From positions 1-64,000 of the forward strand of contig NZ_LIPT01000007.1 of the NCBI RefSeq assembly GCF_001418225.1: a stretch of 64,000 bases of DNA, in the 5' to 3' direction. The notes under the pieces are model-generated. The model was not told where the DNA came from. It was given only the letters and a program-made list of their open reading frames with translations, and did no database searches. The DNA is from Pannonibacter indicus (GTDB lineage: Bacteria; Pseudomonadota; Alphaproteobacteria; Rhizobiales; Stappiaceae). A program made the position numbers and the translations under genes. Positions 3,354 to 60,960 of the stretch are shown here, piece by piece. Numbering within the stretch: position 1 is the stretch's first letter; each line of letters opens with the position of its first letter.

Positions 3354-3535
3354 TCCTCTCCCCTTTGAGGGAAGGGCTATCGCATATGGCGGAAATCTCT
3401 TCCGCCTGCGTAAGGATCGAACGCTCAGTCCTTGGGAAGGGCAATTTGGGAATCCGGAAATGCGTTGCGGCGACAGACCCGAATCCAGAAATTCCATATG
3501 CGACTCCCCTGCCCCTCAAGGGGGGAGAGGGGCGC
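3354..3535. repeat. Composite inverted-repeat element, copy 1
   Basis: The left arm begins CTCCTCTCCCC-TTTGAGGG and includes CGCATATGG. The right arm mirrors it with CCATATGCG and CCCCTCAAGGGGGGAGAGG, followed by GCGCTGCGGCAAAACGAGG. The same arm sequence and GCGGCAA tail recur at 36866-37025, so this is an interspersed intergenic element and not a chance hairpin. No coding capacity is visible. It fills the gap between the IS and the SDR gene. Confidence 0.75.
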
Positions 3536-3694
3536 TGCGGCAAAACGAGGGTCCGATCCTGCTCCGTGCGCCCAATGAAACCTTGCCTGCTTCCGAGGAT
3601 GATGTCGCGTTGGCGAGCGCATCCAAATGGCGATGCGCCCGCCAGGGCCATGAGAGGCGGCCCGCTCATGGCTGCATAGCGGAGATGGGATCGT

Positions 3695-8145: not shown

Positions 8146-8172
8146 TGTTTTTTCCCGAAAGAACCATTCATG

Positions 8173-8265
8173 CCAAGTCTTATGATGCTGACGCATCACG
8201 CTTTGAAATTGCTCAAGCGCCGCACGGGCTTGTCCGGCTCCCGGTGAGGCCAGCCCACCGGGAGC
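8173..8265 (-). repeat. Structured intergenic repeat, copy A
   Basis: It begins CCAAG, then GATGC-TGAC-GCATC, then GCTCAAGCGCCGCACGGGCTT, then a second hairpin GCTCCCGGTG (8237-8246) / CACCGGGAGC (8256-8265). It lies six bases after the permease stop and before the ATPase start. Related copies are at 58089, 59391 and 60581. Confidence 0.8.
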
Positions 8266-8270
8266 TGGTA

Positions 8271-9095
8271 TCAGCCGCCGAAGCCGCGGGCGAAGGAGGC
8301 GCCTCCGATCACGCGGCGGGCGAACATCAGGGCAATGAAGGACGGAACCCAGAGCATGACCGAGAGCACGGCGCCGAACTGGATCACCATCTGGTTGTTG
8401 ATGAAGCTGATCATCAGCACCGGCATGGTGCGGATGCCGGGGGCACCGATCAGCCAGGCGCCTTCGGTTTCATAAAAGGTGCTGACAAAGGTGAGGAGCA
8501 GGGCTGCTGCGATCGTCGGAGCGGCCTGGGGCAGGGTAACCGACCAGAACACCCGGAATGGCCCCGCGCCAACATCACGCGCCGCTTCTTCCATGGGGCG
8601 GTCCACTGCCTGGAAAGCCGCAACGGGAATCCAGATCATGAACATCAGCGTGTTGACGAGCTGGATCAGCGCCACGCCCCAGAAGGTTCCGATCAGGTCG
8701 AGCTGCAGGAAGATCGCCGCAATCGCGACCAGCAGGCCGAATTTTGGAAAGGCGTGGCCTGCGAGAAACGAGAAGAACAGGATGTTCCTCAGTGGAAAGC
8801 GCATGCGGGCAAAGGCATAGGCTGCAGGCAGGCAGATCACTGCCGATGCGAGTGTCACGATTGCCGAGAGCGTGAGGCTGAGCCGCAAGGCATTCCAGAC
8901 ATCGGAGCGGTTCAGCGTTTGCTCCCAGAAACGCAGCCCGAATTGCTGAGGCATGACGCTCGGATAGCGCCAGACTTCGGTGAAGGCCCAGACACCGACG
9001 ACGAGCAGCGGCAGGACAACGGCAATCGTCAGAAGGACGGCGAAGAGAAGGCCTGTTCCATCGAAGGGCGCACGCGGGGCGGTCAGCTTGCTCAT
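8271..9095 (-). CDS. ABC transporter permease (PotC/FbpB type)
   Basis: 274 residues from ATG 9095, overlapping the previous stop region closely. It has six hydrophobic helices and the EAA loop (AARDVGAGPFRVFWSVTLPQAAP) that docks with the ATPase. It pairs with the permease immediately upstream to form the membrane channel. Family alone does not give substrate; neighbours suggest a phosphorylated organic compound. The C-terminus VIGGASFARGFGG is short and normal for the family. Confidence 0.9.
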   Translation of the reverse strand: MSKLTAPRAPFDGTGLLFAVLLTIAVVLPLLVVGVWAFTEVWRYPSVMPQQFGLRFWEQTLNRSDVWNALRLSLTLSAIVTLASAVICLPAAYAFARMRFPLRNILFFSFLAGHAFPKFGLLVAIAAIFLQLDLIGTFWGVALIQLVNTLMFMIWIPVAAFQAVDRPMEEAARDVGAGPFRVFWSVTLPQAAPTIAAALLLTFVSTFYETEGAWLIGAPGIRTMPVLMISFINNQMVIQFGAVLSVMLWVPSFIALMFARRVIGGASFARGFGG

Positions 9096-11415: not shown

Positions 11416-11555
11416 GAACTGGTTTGTCCGCCGGTCTTTGACGGGACTGGCGCGTCAGAAACGGGTCAAGCCCGTGCAGCGCCTGAATATTTCAGGGCGT
11501 GATGGGGCAGCGCTGTAAGGCCTGGTGTCCTGCGCGAAGCATGGAAATCCTGGTG

Positions 11556-12605
11556 TCAGGCTGGCTTTGCCCTTACGGAACGGCGCCAGACCGGGAGCGG
11601 TTCAAAGATGGCGGCCCCGGAACTTTGCCTGCCGGGCAATTGCTCAGGCAATTGCTCGGGCAATGGCTCGGTCAAGGTCAGCAGATCCACCACATGAGCC
11701 GCCATGCGGTCGAGCGGCTGTTCAAAGGTCGTAAGCTGATAGGCTTCCCAGCCCGCCTGTTCGATATTGTCGAAGCCGATGACGCACAGGTCTTCCGGGA
11801 TCTTCAATCCGAATTCCTGGCGGGCGCCGTCCATGAAGCCGAGGGCGAGCAAATCCGTGACGCAGAAGACGCCATCGGGCGAGACGGAGCGGGCAAAGAC
11901 GCGGCGGGCCGCCTCATAGCCGGAACGGTAGCCTGTCGGCCCCGCTTCAAAAACGGTGACATCGAGGTTGCAGGCAGAGGCGGCGGCGGTGAAACAGCGC
12001 TCACGGGCCAGCAGGCTTGGCGTGCGCGCCTGCGACGTCAGGAGGCCAATTCTCCGGCAGCCTGCGCGCCGGAGCAGGAAGAGGGCTTCTTTGGCTGCCA
12101 TCCCATTGTCCACGCCGACATTCTGGGCGCCGTGCAAGCCATCGTCGCGGTTGATCAGCACGACCTGTTGGCCGTTGGCGAGTGCCGTATGGACCAGTGA
12201 CGAAGATGGGGTGCCGGACAGAACCACAGTCGCATCGGCTCTGTAATGCAGCGTCAGCTTCAGGGCGCGCCCGACGCTTTCCTCGTTGCTCTCCGTGTTG
12301 ATCACCATGGTGATCTTGCCTGCGGCCTGAAGCTTGCGCGTCAGGCTTTCGAGCATTCCGGCGCGCACGGGCGTCGTCATGTCCGACACGATCAGGCAGA
12401 CGATGTTGCTGCGCTCGCGCAGCTGCCGGGCCAGGTGATTGACGTGATAGCCAAGGGCCTCGGCGGCTTCCATCACCTTCCGGCGGGTTTCCTCCGAAAC
12501 GCTGGCGCCGTCGGTGAAGGTGCGTGAGACCGCTGACCGCGACACTCCGGCCCGCTCGGCAACCATCTTTGCGCTGACAAAGACCTTCGGCTTGACCTCG
12601 CGCAT
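11556..12605 (-). CDS. LacI-family transcriptional regulator
   Basis: 349 residues from ATG 12605. The helix-turn-helix (KMVAERAGVSRSAVSRTFTDGASVS) is followed by the hinge (GYHVNHLARQLRERSN) and a periplasmic-binding-like ligand domain. It lies upstream of, and in the same direction as, the transporter operon, with two matching palindromes in the gap, so it is the obvious local repressor. The inducer would be the imported substrate or a breakdown product. The C-terminus is rich in PEQLPEQLPG repeats: the DNA carries repeats of GGCAATTGCTC around 11635-11665, a small slippage-type expansion. Confidence 0.9.
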   Translation of the reverse strand: MREVKPKVFVSAKMVAERAGVSRSAVSRTFTDGASVSEETRRKVMEAAEALGYHVNHLARQLRERSNIVCLIVSDMTTPVRAGMLESLTRKLQAAGKITMVINTESNEESVGRALKLTLHYRADATVVLSGTPSSSLVHTALANGQQVVLINRDDGLHGAQNVGVDNGMAAKEALFLLRRAGCRRIGLLTSQARTPSLLARERCFTAAASACNLDVTVFEAGPTGYRSGYEAARRVFARSVSPDGVFCVTDLLALGFMDGARQEFGLKIPEDLCVIGFDNIEQAGWEAYQLTTFEQPLDRMAAHVVDLLTLTEPLPEQLPEQLPGRQSSGAAIFEPLPVWRRSVRAKPA

Positions 12606-36730: not shown

Positions 36731-37081
36731 GATGGCTGCCTTCCTTTGCCGGGTGTGCGGGGGCGCGTCCGTTGCGGACAGCTAACCGCAGTGATGCATC
36801 AGTATGGCGGCGGCGGCTCTTTGCCGGGGCAGTGTTTACATCGGACTTCCGGTCAGGCCCCAGCTCCTCTCCCCCCTTGAGGGGGAGATGCCTCCGGCAG
36901 GGGGCAGAGGGGGGTAACTGACTGTCCGTTTGTAAGAGAGTCTCTGCCTTGCTGAAGCGCTGCCCCCCCCCTCTGTCTGCTGGCGCAGACATCTCCCCCT
37001 CAAGGGGGGAGAGGGGCACCGCGGCAAGAGGAGAGGGCTCTTTTTCTCTCAAGTGGCCCATCAGACCTGAACGTTCAGCCC
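36731..37081. repeat. Composite inverted-repeat element, copy 2
   Basis: The gap between nikA and nikB contains a 25-bp perfect inverted repeat: an arm at 36866-36890 (CCTCTCCCCCC then TTGAGGGGGAGATG) and its exact complement at 36990-37014, with partly matching flanks that extend the arms to about 50 bp. A GCGGCAAGAGGAG tail follows. This is the same family as 3354-3535. Inside an operon it could form a large RNA hairpin that separates nikA expression from nikBCDE. Confidence 0.85.
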
Positions 37082-56422: not shown

Positions 56423-57892
56423 GTGAAGAACCAGTCTAGTCCGGTGCGCAAGGCGCTCCGCACCCTGCTGACGGCAGGTCTGATGGCCAGTCTCGCGGGC
56501 TGCCAGATGCTGGGCGGCAATTCGGCTTCTGTGGGTGTTGTGGCGCCGGGCACGCTGCGGCCGGGCCTTGCGGCGGATATCGGCGCGCGCGAGCATCCAC
56601 GTGTGGTGGCGACCTACGGCGGCGTCTATCAGAACCCCGGTGCGGAGCGGGCGATTGCGGCTGTTGTTGGCCGCCTCGTGGCTGCTTCCGATGATCCGAG
56701 CCAGAGCTACCGCATCACCATCCTCAATTCTCCGGCGGTGAATGCCTTCGCCCTGCCGGGTGGCTATCTCTACATCACCCGCGGGCTGCTGGCGCTGGCC
56801 AATGACACGTCCGAGGCTGCGGCGGTGCTGGCCCATGAAATGGCGCATGTGACGGCGAATCACGCCATCCAGCGCCAGCAGAAGGCCGAGGCTACGGAGC
56901 TCGCCAACCGCGTTGTCAGCAATGTGGTGAAGGATCCGGAGAAGGTGAAAGAGGCGGTCATCTCCTCGCAGCTCTCCTTTGCCCGCTTCTCGCAGGCACA
57001 GGAGCTGGAGGCGGACAAGATCGGCGTGCGCACGCTGGCCCGCGCCGGGTTTGATCCCTTCGCCGCCGCCCGCTTCCTCAATTCCATGTCGTCCTTTGCC
57101 GCCCTGCAGAGCGCCCGCAAGGAAGGCTCCTCCGCGCCGGACTTCATTTCCTCGCATCCGAGCACGCCGGAGCGGATGAACCTTGCCATTCAGGAGGCCC
57201 GCGCCATCAGCGCGCCGGGCATCGGCGAGCGTGACCGCACGGCCTATCTGTCGAATATCGACGGCATGCTGTTTGGCGATGATCCGCTGGAGGGCTTCGT
57301 GCGCGGGCGTGACTTCCTGCACAAGGCGCTTGGCATCGGTTTCTCGGTGCCGGCCGGCTATGTGCTGGAAAACTCGCCGGAGGCTGTGCTGGCCAGCAAT
57401 GGCTCGGGCACGGCCATGCGCTTTGATGGTGCCGATCTGACCGGCTATGACAGCCTGCGCAGCTACATGAATGCGGGCTGGATCAACGGCCTCATTCCCG
57501 ACAGCGTCAAGGAAACAACCATCAACGGCCTGCCGGCGGTTGTCGGCTCCGCGATCACGCAGGGCTGGTCCTTCCGCATCGCCGTGGTGCGCATCGGCCG
57601 CAATGGCTACCGCTTCATCTTTGCCAGCCGGGATCCGGGCGCGGCTTTCACCCGTGACTATGACCAGACGATCCAGAGCTTCCGCCAGCTGTCTCCGACA
57701 GAGCGGGCGCGGCTGCAGTCGCTGCGCATCAAGGTGGTGCAGAGCCGCGACGGCGATACGCCGCGCAGCCTCGCCATCGGCATGAGCGGCATCGAACCGT
57801 CCCGCCGGCTGGAGTTCTTCTCCGTGCTGAATGGCTTCCGCCCGGATGACGAGATCCCGGCAGGAACGTCGGTGAAGCTGGTGGTGGATTGA
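56423..57892 (+). CDS. M48-family metalloprotease lipoprotein
   Basis: 489 residues if started at GTG 56423, giving a normal lipoprotein signal (SLAGC); GTG 56393, overlapping the previous stop, is an alternative. HEMAHVTANH is the zinc-binding HExxH and ELEADKIG supplies the third ligand. C-terminal part (about 300-489) includes a LysM-like or SH3-like end (PDDEIPAGTSVKLVVD). Periplasmic, outer-membrane anchored; BepA/LoiP-like quality control of outer-membrane proteins is the likely task. Confidence 0.88.
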   Translation: MKNQSSPVRKALRTLLTAGLMASLAGCQMLGGNSASVGVVAPGTLRPGLAADIGAREHPRVVATYGGVYQNPGAERAIAAVVGRLVAASDDPSQSYRITILNSPAVNAFALPGGYLYITRGLLALANDTSEAAAVLAHEMAHVTANHAIQRQQKAEATELANRVVSNVVKDPEKVKEAVISSQLSFARFSQAQELEADKIGVRTLARAGFDPFAAARFLNSMSSFAALQSARKEGSSAPDFISSHPSTPERMNLAIQEARAISAPGIGERDRTAYLSNIDGMLFGDDPLEGFVRGRDFLHKALGIGFSVPAGYVLENSPEAVLASNGSGTAMRFDGADLTGYDSLRSYMNAGWINGLIPDSVKETTINGLPAVVGSAITQGWSFRIAVVRIGRNGYRFIFASRDPGAAFTRDYDQTIQSFRQLSPTERARLQSLRIKVVQSRDGDTPRSLAIGMSGIEPSRRLEFFSVLNGFRPDDEIPAGTSVKLVVD

Positions 57893-58088
57893 AGCGGGGG
57901 TGAGCTGAGCCTGAAACCGTGCCTGGGAGTCGTCCCGGACGGAGCGAGGCTGAGATCCGGGACCACTCGTTCGCAAAGCGGTGAGTGGTGCTTCCGGCGG
58001 TGACCCGTTGCCAAAGTTCAGGATGACAGAGGCGCTTTGCAAGCGGGTAGACCCCGGCTCGCGCTACGCTTGGCCGGGGTGACCCATA
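57893..58088. repeat. Intergenic palindrome repeats
   Basis: Hairpins such as GTCCCGGA...TCCGGGAC near 57932-57963 and ACCCCGG...CCGGGGT near 58050-58081. No coding region is apparent. Followed by copy B of the structured repeat. Confidence 0.6.
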
Positions 58089-58183
58089 CCAAGGCTCTGA
58101 GATGCTGACGCATCACGCCTTGAAAATGCTCAAGCGCCGCACGGGCTTAACCAGCGCTCGATGAGTTCAGGATCATCGAGCGC
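58089..58183 (-). repeat. Structured intergenic repeat, copy B
   Basis: CCAAGGC-TCTGA-GATGC-TGAC-GCATC-AC-GCCTTG forms a nested hairpin with two perfect stems. GCTCAAGCGCCGCACGGGCTT follows, then GCGCTCGATG (58154-58163) / CATCGAGCGC (58174-58183). The second stem differs in sequence from copy A but pairs fully. It lies 65 bases after the rpoH stop. Confidence 0.85.
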
Positions 58184-58247
58184 CGGTATCAATGCCCTGG
58201 CAGGGATCGCCGGTTAAAAGCACTCCTCCCCTGGGAGCATGCCCCTC

Positions 58248-59117
58248 TCACGGCATCAGGGCAAGACGGTCCGGCTGGGCCTTGAGCAGGGCTTCTTTCA
58301 GCTTTTCCAAAGCCCGGTTCTCGATCTGGCGGACACGCTCCTTGGAGATGCCCATGGTCTGGCCAATGGCCTCCAGCGTGGCGCTTTCTTCCTTCAGGCG
58401 CCGATCGCGCACGATCTGCCGTTCGCGCTCGGTCAGCACATTCATGGCGGAGCGCAGCCACTTGCGCTGGCGTTCGCCATCGATCTCGCCGCTCACCACT
58501 TCATCGGGAAGCGGTGCATCGGAGATGAGGAAGTCCTGCCGGTCGGCGCTGCTGCCTTCCGTGTCGGACAGGGGCGCGTTGAGCGAGGTGTCGGGACTGG
58601 ACAGCCGGGCGCTCATCATGTCCACGTCGGCAATCTTCACGCCGATGGTCTCGGCGATCTGCCGGTGCATCTCGCTTTCGTTGATGCCCTGTTGCCCGGC
58701 GCTGATCTTGGCGCGCAGACGGCGCAGGTTGAAGAAGAGCGACTTCTGCGCCGAGGAGGTGCCCCCGCGCACGATCGACCAGTTGCGCAGAATATAGTCC
58801 TGGATGGAGGCGCGGATCCACCATGTGGCATAGGTGGAGAAGCGGACCTCGCGCTCCGGCTCGAACCGGCCTGCGGCTTCCAGCAAGCCGACATGGCCTT
58901 CCTGGATCAGGTCGTTCATCGGCAGGCCGAAGTTGCGGAATCGGGCGGCCACGGCGATGACGAGACGCATGTGTGAGAGGGACAGGCGGTCCAATGCGGC
59001 CTGATCCTGTTCATCCCGCCATTTGATGGCGAGCTGCTGTTCTTCCTCACGGCTAAGGTACGGCGCGTTGATGGCGGCCTTGACGATCTGACGCCGGGTG
59101 CTCATCGATGTACTCAT
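58248..59117 (-). CDS. rpoH: RNA polymerase sigma-32 factor
   Basis: 289 residues from ATG 59117, with GGGAGCC upstream; an in-frame start at 59186 lacks a ribosome site. Region 2 has LIQEGHVGLLEAAGRFEPE and FSTYATWWIRASIQDYILRNW; the RpoH box is QKSLFFNLRRLR; region 4 ends with MGISKERVRQIENRALEKL. Heat-shock or oxidative-stress sigma factor; the order often has two rpoH genes, and the short N-terminus looks more like RpoH2, which is a guess. Own transcript. Confidence 0.95.
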   Translation of the reverse strand: MSTSMSTRRQIVKAAINAPYLSREEEQQLAIKWRDEQDQAALDRLSLSHMRLVIAVAARFRNFGLPMNDLIQEGHVGLLEAAGRFEPEREVRFSTYATWWIRASIQDYILRNWSIVRGGTSSAQKSLFFNLRRLRAKISAGQQGINESEMHRQIAETIGVKIADVDMMSARLSSPDTSLNAPLSDTEGSSADRQDFLISDAPLPDEVVSGEIDGERQRKWLRSAMNVLTERERQIVRDRRLKEESATLEAIGQTMGISKERVRQIENRALEKLKEALLKAQPDRLALMP

Positions 59118-59390
59118 GATGGCAGGCTCCCTGTTGCTTGTCGGATATGTTACGCCACTTGCGGCGGTCCAGATCAGCGTTTTCACCCGGTTTGGAAGGT
59201 GGCGTGGCAGTTAGGGAATGCAGTGCCCGTCAGCGCGCCTCAGGCACGCAAAGCTGCGGGGGAGGGCAACTTCTTGCCCAGAATAGGCTTTTCGTTTGAG
59301 GGCTGCCTTTCGGCCTGCCCGCCGGGCCAAGTTTCTGGCACATTCTGACGCAGGCGCATCACGAAAATGTGGCTGCAGCGTCTCATCATA

Positions 59391-59480
59391 CCAAGGCATC
59401 CGAGATGCTGACGCATCACGCCCTGGGGCTGTCAAACCCCGCACGGGCCTGATCGGTTCCCGGTTAAGCCAGGTTCATCG
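59391..59480 (-). repeat. Structured intergenic repeat, copy C
   Basis: CCAAGGC-ATCCGA-GATGC-TGAC-GCATC-AC-GCCCTG, then CCGCACGGGCCT and a partly decayed second hairpin (TTCCCGGTTAAGCC). The inner stem is identical to the other copies; the outer stem has one mismatch. About 100 bases after the carD stop. Confidence 0.75.
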
Positions 59481-59522
59481 GAAGTTAGTATGAGACAATG
59501 GCCTCAGTGAGGGCAAAGAACG

Positions 59523-59554
59523 AAAAGGGCGCTCAGCTTACGCCGGACGCCCTT
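59523..59554 (-). terminator. Terminator of carD
   Basis: On the minus strand AAGGGCG (59554-59548) pairs with CGCCCTT (59531-59525) followed by TTCG. 26 bases after the carD stop. Confidence 0.75.
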
Positions 59555-59579
59555 CCTGATCGTAGAAGATGCGGCCTGA

Positions 59580-60152
59580 TCAGGCGGCTTCTTCTTCCTG
59601 TTCGTCTTCTTCCTCGGCGCTCTTGACCCGGGCCGGGGTTTTGGCGAGGTTCTGCTCAATCTGCTTGACGGCTTCCGTCTCGGAGCACTTGTTTACGGCA
59701 GCGATTTCACGCGCCATCCGGTCCAGTGCAGCTTCATAGAGCTGGCGCTCGGAATAGGACTGTTCCGGCTGGGCGTCGGAGCGGTAGAGATCGCGCACGA
59801 CTTCGGAAATGGCCAGCAGGTCGCCGGAGTTGATCTTGGCTTCGTATTCCTGGGCGCGGCGGCTCCACATGGTGCGCTTGACGCGCGGACGGCCGCGAAC
59901 GGTCTCCAGAGCCTTCTTCACAGCAGCGGCATCCGCCAGCTTGCGCATGCCGACCGAGGCGATCTTGGCGACGGGGACACGCAGGGTCATCTTGTCCTTC
60001 TCGAAGCTGATGACCAGCAGTTCCAGCGCATAACCTGCAACGCTCTGTTCTTCGATGGCCGTGATCTGGCCGACGCCGTGAGCGGGATAAACGATATGTT
60101 CGCCAGTCTTGAAGCCCTGACGCTGCGCGGTCTTCTTGGTGGGGGTTGCCAT
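59580..60152 (-). CDS. carD: CarD-family transcription factor
   Basis: 190 residues from ATG 60152; the frame extends to 60320 but that part is non-conserved. The N-terminal RNA-polymerase-interacting Tudor-like domain has FKTGEHIVYPAHGVGQITAIEEQ, here split: FKTGEHIVYPAHGVGQ then ITAIEEQ. The C-terminal helical DNA-binding domain has the conserved RPRVKRTMWSRRAQEYEAKI (part). Ends in an acidic tail (EEEDEQEEEAA). Stabilises open complexes at rRNA and other promoters. Confidence 0.95.
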   Translation of the reverse strand: MATPTKKTAQRQGFKTGEHIVYPAHGVGQITAIEEQSVAGYALELLVISFEKDKMTLRVPVAKIASVGMRKLADAAAVKKALETVRGRPRVKRTMWSRRAQEYEAKINSGDLLAISEVVRDLYRSDAQPEQSYSERQLYEAALDRMAREIAAVNKCSETEAVKQIEQNLAKTPARVKSAEEEDEQEEEAA

Positions 60153-60621
60153 ACGCTTCGTAACTCCTGCGCAGTTACGGCTGAATGAGCCGTACCGGGC
60201 CGCCACGGGGCGGACCGTTGTTCCTGTGATAACGCAAACCGGACCGGAACCTGCTCGCGCATGAGCTCCGGACCTGTCTGTACGTCTTGGGTGGTCAGCC
60301 GCCGGTGCTCGCCGGTTCAAACGGGCCGCATTTCACATGTGCGTGGCTGCGGAGAAACTTGATCTCGCGCACGATCCAGCGGTGGACTGCGACCATAAAA
60401 AAACCTCCAGGGGGAGGGGTGAACCAAGACTGCGACGACTACTTGAACAACCTATCACAAAAACTCAAAAAACCAAAGCAGAAAGCGACCGGGTGTTATC
60501 CCGGCCGCTCTGGCAACTTGCTTCCGTATCGTAACCTGCAGGCTTCCGCCATGCGTCAAGTCAAGGATTTCCCGCTTTTGCCAAGGCTGCGGGATGCTGA
60601 CGCATCAAGCCTTGCGATGGC
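60153..60621. other. carD upstream region
   Basis: About 470 bases between fdxA and carD. Contains the 33-codon candidate ORF, an A-rich/T-rich block at 60455-60480, a GACCGGG-type hairpin at 60488-60506, and copy D of the structured repeat at the fdxA end. The carD promoter is expected in the A/T-rich block. Confidence 0.5.
60295..60396 (-). CDS. Possible 33-residue leader ORF upstream of carD
   Basis: ATG 60396 follows a strong CTGGAGG site at seven-base spacing, ending TGA at 60295. The product begins MVAVHRWIVREIKFLRS and is basic. It lies 140 bases upstream of carD on the same strand, so it could be a leader peptide or a small protein. No homolog is known to me; a chance ORF is possible. 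Confidence 0.4.
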   Translation of the reverse strand: MVAVHRWIVREIKFLRSHAHVKCGPFEPASTGG

Positions 60622-60631
60622 TCAGGCGCCG
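60581..60631 (-). repeat. Structured intergenic repeat, copy D (truncated)
   Basis: CCAAGGC-TGCGG-GATGC-TGAC-GCATC-AA-GCCTTG, both stems perfect. It runs right up to and into the fdxA stop region (CTCAGGCGCCGTCC). The second hairpin is missing. It sits 3' of fdxA. Confidence 0.8.
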
Positions 60632-60960
60632 TCCGGACCGTTGGGCGAGAAGTGGGTTTCCAGCTTGTTCTTGATGCCGTCAAACTCGGGTGCCTCGGGA
60701 AGGGCATCCTTCTTCTCGGTGATGTTGGGCCACTTTGCCGCATATTCGGCGTTGAGCTCGATCCACTTCTCAAGGCCGGGTTCGGTATCCGGCAGAATGG
60801 CTTCGGCCGGGCACTCGGGCTCGCACACGCCGCAGTCGATGCATTCGTCCGGATTGATGACGAGCATGTTCTCGCCTTCATAGAAACAATCGACCGGGCA
60901 AACTTCGACACAGTCGGTGTACTTGCACATGATGCAGTTGTCAGTGACGACGTAGGTCAT
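60622..60960 (-). CDS. fdxA: 7Fe-8S ferredoxin
   Basis: 112 residues. Cys at 9, 12, 17 and 21 ([18 protein letters not shown]) and [12 protein letters not shown] give a [3Fe-4S] and a [4Fe-4S] cluster as in FdxA of the order. The C-terminal extension of about 50 residues is normal. Essential housekeeping electron carrier. Start ATG 60960; the S4 gene is 200 bases upstream on the same strand. Confidence 0.95.

Follow-up and report, generated by a model that had tools for sequence, protein, structure and literature searches.

An abundant palindromic repeat of Pannonibacter is probably a MITE-like element that duplicates a TNA target, often at stop codons

Small palindromic repeats are common in the intergenic DNA of alphaproteobacteria, and RIME (reportedly described by Osteras in 1995) and the other rhizobial intergenic mosaic repeats are all small, palindromic and intergenic. 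Passages of PMC2573895 likewise mention palindromic intergenic repeats in rhizobia. The Caulobacter CcrM-associated intergenic repeats (CIR; Chen and Shapiro 2003, as cited in the review PMC2229807) are given in the relevant part of that review as about 110 bp long, with two arms joined by a linker, a conserved GANTC at a terminal loop and a question mark for the target-site duplication (TSD), and the same part asks for more information on their mobility. Br-REP1 of Bradyrhizobium has its central palindrome at about 200 sites (PMC5082802, relevant sections), and the term TSD is absent from the main text of that paper. Among insertion sequences, the IS1031 group makes a 3-bp TNA target duplication (PMC12016507, section on this group). 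In the searchable text of the open-licence literature we found no account of the repeat described here in Pannonibacter, and no description of a TNA duplication for CIR or RIME.

The Pannonibacter repeat resembles RIME in being a small palindromic intergenic repeat, a comparison by description only. It shares with CIR, as summarised in the review and compared by description only, a length of about 110 bp, an intergenic location in an alphaproteobacterium, two inverted-repeat arms with a linker, and TA ends, and it differs from the review's entry for CIR in that a TNA duplication is visible where the review has a question mark. The 3-bp TNA duplication is shared with the IS1031 group (IS5 family) and its derived MITEs, as these are set out in PMC12016507. 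Like Br-REP1 it has three palindromes and lies in overlapping 3′ UTRs of convergent genes, but the central palindrome as printed for Br-REP1 is not the Pannonibacter linker core (PMC5082802, relevant sections). The Methylobacterium MITE MiniMdi3, which passages of PMC2680597 give as about 400 bp, is a different element.

We conclude that this repeat of about 107 nt is very probably a non-autonomous, MITE-like transposable element, a better reading than that of an RNA regulator. The signs of mobility are its TACC…GGTA ends, a 3-bp duplication of TNA, presence or absence between sister species, and the lack of a gene of its own. The general kind (MITE- or CIR-like) is already known, to which this element adds a visible target-site duplication and an explanation for the location at stop codons. 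The window, which is the whole stretch of 64,000 nt analysed here (contig C7:1-64000), is part of a 4.17-Mb Pannonibacter genome. The sigma-32 proteins of the window and of Pannonibacter phragmitetus DSM 14782 share 97% identity, and the DNA of the neighbourhood, where aligned, is mostly 93–95% identical. The copies in the window, with the parts of one copy and its neighbouring gene, are as follows.

8168-8274, plus strand: full-length copy (109.8 bits), flanking triplets TCA/TCA
11425-11530, minus strand: fifth, decayed copy (42.9 bits) in the opposite orientation, overlooked in the initial annotation
58084-58192, plus strand: full-length copy (109.8 bits), the one singled out in the initial annotation, with triplets CCA (left) and TCA (right)
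58090-58122, plus strand: H1 of copy 58084, CAAGGC/GCCTTG around GATGC-TGAC-GCATC
58128-58148, plus strand: linker core of copy 58084, containing hairpin H2, GCTCAAGCGCCGCACGGGCTT
58151-58186, plus strand: H3 of copy 58084, CCAGCGCTCGATGA...TCATCGAGCGCCGG
58248-59105, minus strand: gene for the sigma-32 factor of RNA polymerase (NF005693, 449.7 bits), a neighbour outside the element
59386-59494, plus strand: full-length, diverged copy (64.7 bits), triplets TCA/TGA
60576-60640, plus strand: truncated copy (H1 and the start of the linker), overlapping the end of the FdxA ferredoxin gene

The initial annotation of the window had recognised four copies in a single orientation, always 3′ of minus-strand genes. 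Its count agrees with GATGCTGACGCATC, of which there are four exact copies (at 8184, 58101, 59404 and 60593); allowing up to two mismatches gives five matches, where 1.34 would be expected. The unit which it had placed at 58089-58183 is indeed a repeat, but a longer one of about 107 nt (58084-58192). The common sequence CCAAGGC…GCCTTG was given too strictly, as the copy at 8173 reads CCAAGTC…GCTTTG, and the copy at 60581 has no H3. Both second hairpins that had been quoted are present and fully paired. The location of the four copies 3′ of minus-strand genes was also correct: at the stop (copy 8168), 55 nt past that of the sigma-32 gene (58084), 85 nt past that of gene 59580-60152 (59386), and overlapping the gene end (60576). 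The right TCA of copy 8168 (8271-8273) serves as the TGA stop of an ABC-permease-like gene on the minus strand (8271-9095), and the decayed copy lies 25 nt beyond the stop codon of a LacI-family-like gene on the same strand as that gene (minus, 11556-12605). The stop codon of the FdxA gene (60622-60624) lies inside linker-like sequence of the truncated copy, which may have supplied it; this copy is common to the window's genome and DSM 14782, with the FdxA end included. Comparison of the other sites showed no element in the corresponding, altered spacer of DSM 14782 for copy 58084, while copy 59386 is absent from DSM 14782, where the site has no TNA triplet today. No site matching that of copy 8168 was found in DSM 14782, and in three more distant sister genomes (G001, G003 and G004) the matching site has no element. 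Past gene 59580-60152 and before the repeat is reached, the minus strand has a terminator-like hairpin followed by a T-rich tail (59528-59544), which by its sequence pattern may be that gene's own terminator. The window also contains an unrelated 41-nt repeat at 3509-3549 and 36993-37033 (88% identity), which includes CCCCTCAAGGGGGGAGAGGGG.

The full unit is organised as TNA|TACC, the first hairpin H1, a linker with hairpin H2, the third hairpin H3 and GGTA|TNA. Aligned copies read TNA|TACCAAGGC, followed by H1 (CAAGGC…GATGC-TGAC-GCATC…GCCTTG), a linker with H2 (TGCTCAAGCGCCGCACGGGCTTG), H3 with the consensus CCAACTCTCGATGAG...CTCATCGAGAGTTGG, and TA|TNA. The TACC…GGTA ends thus form short terminal inverted repeats as in MITEs, and the outer three pairs of the element are formed in 78% and 82% of the alignment cells; some copies lack H1, H2 or H3, entirely or partly. 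In two sets of Pannonibacter copies GANTC was found in 22/88 and 32/82, with 29.9 and 27.2 in shuffles, and 16/23 and 26/34 of the GANTC sites are at copy positions 70–79, which is approximately the H3 arm and loop. Part of the copies carry GANTC at the H3 arm and loop, a place that may correspond to the one given for CIR in the review, and overall it is about as frequent as in shuffles.

The initial annotation had proposed a genome-wide search with a covariance model, and such a model, built from 24 copies, matched the window's genome at least 145 times (E up to 0.1). We kept 136 of these, leaving out six antisense self-matches of H3 and the three weakest matches, and the kept copies are divided over the strands as 73 and 63. 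A search with the 22-nt core and at most three mismatches located 105 places in the same genome, and none with the reversed core as control. Short (about 107 nt), present in 136 kept copies and non-coding, the repeat has the general properties of a MITE. The five genomes of the genus, searched at a threshold of E 0.001, gave at least 139, 143, 15, 11 and 10 matches (a few antisense self-matches included), the first two numbers being for two species. A set of 24 Hyphomicrobiales genomes searched at E up to 0.01 contained at least 145 matches in DSM 14782 and five weak ones in Methylobacterium platani (again including a few antisense self-matches), with no model match in the remaining genomes of the set. 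There are Roseibium and Stappia genomes that likewise gave no match. Searching a plasmid collection with the typed consensus identified 31 places in two records, both from Pannonibacter. Rfam gave no match to the repeat, whether the window was searched at the gathering score or 57990-58290 at E up to 1. Nearest-neighbour identity among the copies reaches 98% in DSM 14782 and at most 92% in the window's genome, which suggests that the repeat has spread more recently in DSM 14782.

Insertion is accompanied by a 3-bp TNA target-site duplication. The flanking triplets are equal rather than complementary. The ends could be read in 98 copies; 38 of these are flanked by TNA left and right, with the two triplets equal in 27 of the 38 (10,000 shuffles: mean 10.4, maximum 22). 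Restricting the analysis to copies of at least 75 bits left 57 in the window's genome and 70 in DSM 14782, with TNA on both flanks in 34 and 52 and equal triplets in 25 and 41 of these, respectively (maxima of 20 and 26 in 5,000 shuffles each). The triplets are unequal in the remaining 9/34 and 11/52, as they also are in the window copies 58084 and 59386. Of the ten full-length copies on plasmid p.p-1 (P. phragmitetus 31801), eight are flanked by identical triplets, which are TNA in seven cases and TTC in one.

Both flanks of a copy could be found in the DNA of the other species for 51/136 copies of the window's genome and 33/74 of DSM 14782, where 60 of the 64 planned stretches were covered and 74 of the 78 listed copies were testable; shared sites are over-represented here, since the DSM 14782 stretches were picked around its own copies. 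A later step of the analysis took in 64 of 86 stretches of the window's genome. Nine sites have only a short gap in the other species, and four of these are clean, with the triplet present once, as listed below.

C3:410820: empty site CCC-TTA-CGGG; filled allele TTA/TTA
C1:181141: empty site GTC-TCA-CCC; filled allele GCA/TCA
DSM C10:142329: empty site CCC-TTA-CTGC; filled allele TTA/TTA
DSM C12:11447: empty site CTT-TAA-GTCC; filled allele TAA/TCA

The filled alleles thus have the duplication intact at two of the clean sites and altered on one side at the other two. The five other gap sites are less clean because their flanks are altered, and four further sites retain part of the element. A duplication of fixed length with matching empty sites is what MITEs display. 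At each of the four clean sites, a called gene of the element-free species has the single triplet as its stop codon, so the element was inserted at pre-existing stops.

Of the gene ends nearest to the 136 copies, as given by our own gene calls, 119 are stops and 17 are starts, so that the rule of always lying 3′ of a gene applies to the four copies in the window but not genome-wide. The same is true of the common orientation, which is contradicted by the decayed copy at 11425-11530 and by the genome as a whole, where the stop is reached via the H3 end in 77 and via the H1 end in 42 copies: orientation relative to genes is biased, not fixed. With gene ends taken from our own gene calls, the terminal TNA is exactly the stop codon for 30/57 full-length copies in the window's genome (31/57 with one base of slack) and 36/70 in DSM 14782, where the TNA sites of non-coding DNA and stops would lead to an expected share of 11.4% and 10.3%, respectively. 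The NCBI gene ends of plasmid p.p-1 place 5/10 copies exactly at a stop. By our own gene calls no copy is inside a gene (0/136; 0/57 and 0/70 for full-length copies), and according to the plasmid's annotation eight of its ten full-length copies are outside a CDS, with one read through by a CDS and one inside a hypothetical CDS. The copy that is read through (NZ_CP013069, 21872-21978) lies inside an annotated hemagglutinin-repeat CDS ending with the copy's last triplet.

Since TAA and TGA both fit TNA, insertion at a stop codon retains the stop, and the location after stops is therefore largely explained by the target-site duplication. A test restricted by spacer type and weighted for the favoured flanking bases (a C preceding, a G following), in which 69/70 of the DSM 14782 copies are in a spacer, reduced the excess at stops once compactness and flanking-base preference were counted. 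In convergent spacers, 19/35 copies are at stops in the window's genome (expected 40%, P=0.06) and 22/39 in DSM 14782 (expected 35%, P=0.006), compared to 11/18 (expected 21%) and 14/26 (expected 20%) in tandem spacers, with P about 1e-4; divergent spacers contain four copies per genome. Compactness and flank preference account for much, and we do not claim that stop targeting is a pure preference of the enzyme. TNA duplication combined with purifying selection explains much of the stop-codon pattern, and a residual preference for stops, or a benefit there, is possible. It is mostly the H3 end and not the H1 end that coincides with the stop (21:9 in the window's genome, 26:10 in DSM 14782), which counts against insertion alone, as symmetric insertion predicts no such bias.

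That bias, together with the 119/136 copies nearest a stop, speaks for a structured 3′-UTR RNA (a terminator, mRNA stabiliser or processing site) held by selection on its folding, as the initial annotation had suggested. The folding itself is stable, with z-scores of −2.9 to −7.7 in seven folds of four copies, and covariation is real at the level of the family: in 77 distinct copies of DSM 14782, 113 cells of the whole structure differ on both sides yet keep their pairing, versus 35.7 in shuffles, with H3 contributing 10 of the 15 pairs that have such changes. This alignment leans towards the structure because it was fitted to it, and an unfitted alignment of 24 copies also has 35 paired double-change cells versus 14.5 in shuffles. 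In the 29 copies common to the two species, H3 has 68 changes limited to one side, 47 of them breaking or restoring a pair, against 13 double changes, of which 11 are still paired; seven of these 11 come from only two sites, and we do not accept them as proof of structural selection. At the first site (C2:293367) different H1 subtypes lie between identical TAA triplets in the two species, a sign of independent insertions or of conversion, and at the second (C2:116232) three adjacent H3 pairs have changed together next to a nearly identical linker, which could be explained by a single conversion event, a single template switch or selection. Shared copies being altered mostly on one side argues against a 3′-UTR RNA, as do both orientations with folds that are stable on either strand, the 17 copies nearest a start, and the lack of an Rfam match. 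Scanning 57800-60800 for terminator-like sites showed none overlapping the three copies in that region, with one located between gene 59580-60152 and the element. Target-site duplication and empty sites weigh further against it, and we regard selection for a regulatory 3′-UTR RNA as improbable.

The covariation may instead have arisen without selection, in a mobile element whose arms are kept paired by template switching or conversion, which is a variant of the transposable-element reading and not its opposite. The losses of H1 or H3, whole or largely, are as hairpin slippage would produce, the paired changes are concentrated in H3 as the longest palindrome, and the block of three pairs at C2:116232 is in line with such copying, but inheritance from a few source lineages or selection would explain the covariation equally well, and we put this variant forward only tentatively. 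A REP/REPIN-like origin, with movement by a Y1 (RAYT) transposase, is suggested by resemblance, as REPINs also have two arms and a linker, high copy numbers and an intergenic location. Against it stand the element's terminal inverted repeats and its 3-bp duplication of the target, since known IS200/IS605 members are stated in the relevant part of PMC2817692 to have no terminal inverted repeats and no larger target duplications. We have set this origin aside, on the duplication, as highly improbable.

For the MITE-like element, we propose that a DDE transposase with a 3-nt stagger at TNA targets, as in the IS1031 group (IS5 family), would move it in trans, and that this candidate enzyme would recognise the element either by its ends or by the conserved linker core. 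An insertion that hits a stop codon would leave a stop on the gene side and so be nearly harmless and be kept, insertions in genes or promoters would mostly be lost, and old copies would mostly decay. The paired arms H1 and H3 would belong to the active element, either because they are needed for transposition or because they become paired via arm-to-arm copying. The ends and the core of the element are absent from 30 loci of 1.9–3.6 kb each with DDE_Tnp_1 (PF01609), the one family searched (37 matches, 10 genomes), and none of these loci held an autonomous insertion sequence with TACC…GGTA ends, which is a difference from the IS1031 group. The TNA duplication and the empty sites at stop codons offer a testable mechanism for the movement of such repeats, and data on mobility are wanted for the CIR type according to the review cited above. 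The coincidence of target and stop codon also explains much of their location at 3′ ends, and serves as a warning that a mobile palindrome can show covariation and a 3′-UTR position without being a regulatory RNA.

Similar elements with the linker core GCTCAAGCGCCGCRCGGGCTT, or one near it, are present in Methylobacterium and in three genomes of other families. Four of the five M. platani copies have a core near GCTCAAGCGCCGCRCGGGCTT with other arms, and the fifth has the ends without the core, while GCTCAAGCGCCGCRCGGGCTT itself is present in six viral contigs. With up to one mismatch, the linker core GCTCAAGCGCCGCRCGGGCTTG was found in 4/289 sampled alphaproteobacterial genomes, the window's included (28, 24, 9 and 4 copies), the other three belonging to three different other families; the reversed GCTCAAGCGCCGCRCGGGCTTG gave no match in the 289 genomes. 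Conservation of the core is partly by construction, because the core was the search key, which the ends were not. Of 30 loci given to a script (three contig-end loci of G140 were left out), 29 gave 30 core matches, and the ends could be read for 18 of these matches. The flanking triplets are equal in 14 of these 18 non-Pannonibacter elements, versus 6.3 in shuffles (0/10,000 reach 14), although five or more of the end calls look doubtful by eye (L208, L243, L257, L259 and L262), with three of them counted as equal. A single old, class-wide non-autonomous family might unite the CIR-like repeats of alphaproteobacteria, defined by TNA-duplicating ends and the conserved linker GCTCAAGCGCCGCRCGGGCTT, with arms that are freely replaced yet paired, and moved by a conserved, perhaps domesticated enzyme favouring stop codons and a preferred orientation; we regard this as a speculative and rather doubtful extension, in which case the element would supply genes with new 3′ ends. 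In some relatives (loci L264, L267 and L276) the linker core is doubled in tandem with part of the adjoining arm. In G038 (1.8 Mb), seven copies near contig ends (L243, L247, L251, L255, L262, L265 and L268) adjoin CAGGACTTACGCAGTT or a near-match, resembling the terminus of a repeated insertion sequence that carries the element.
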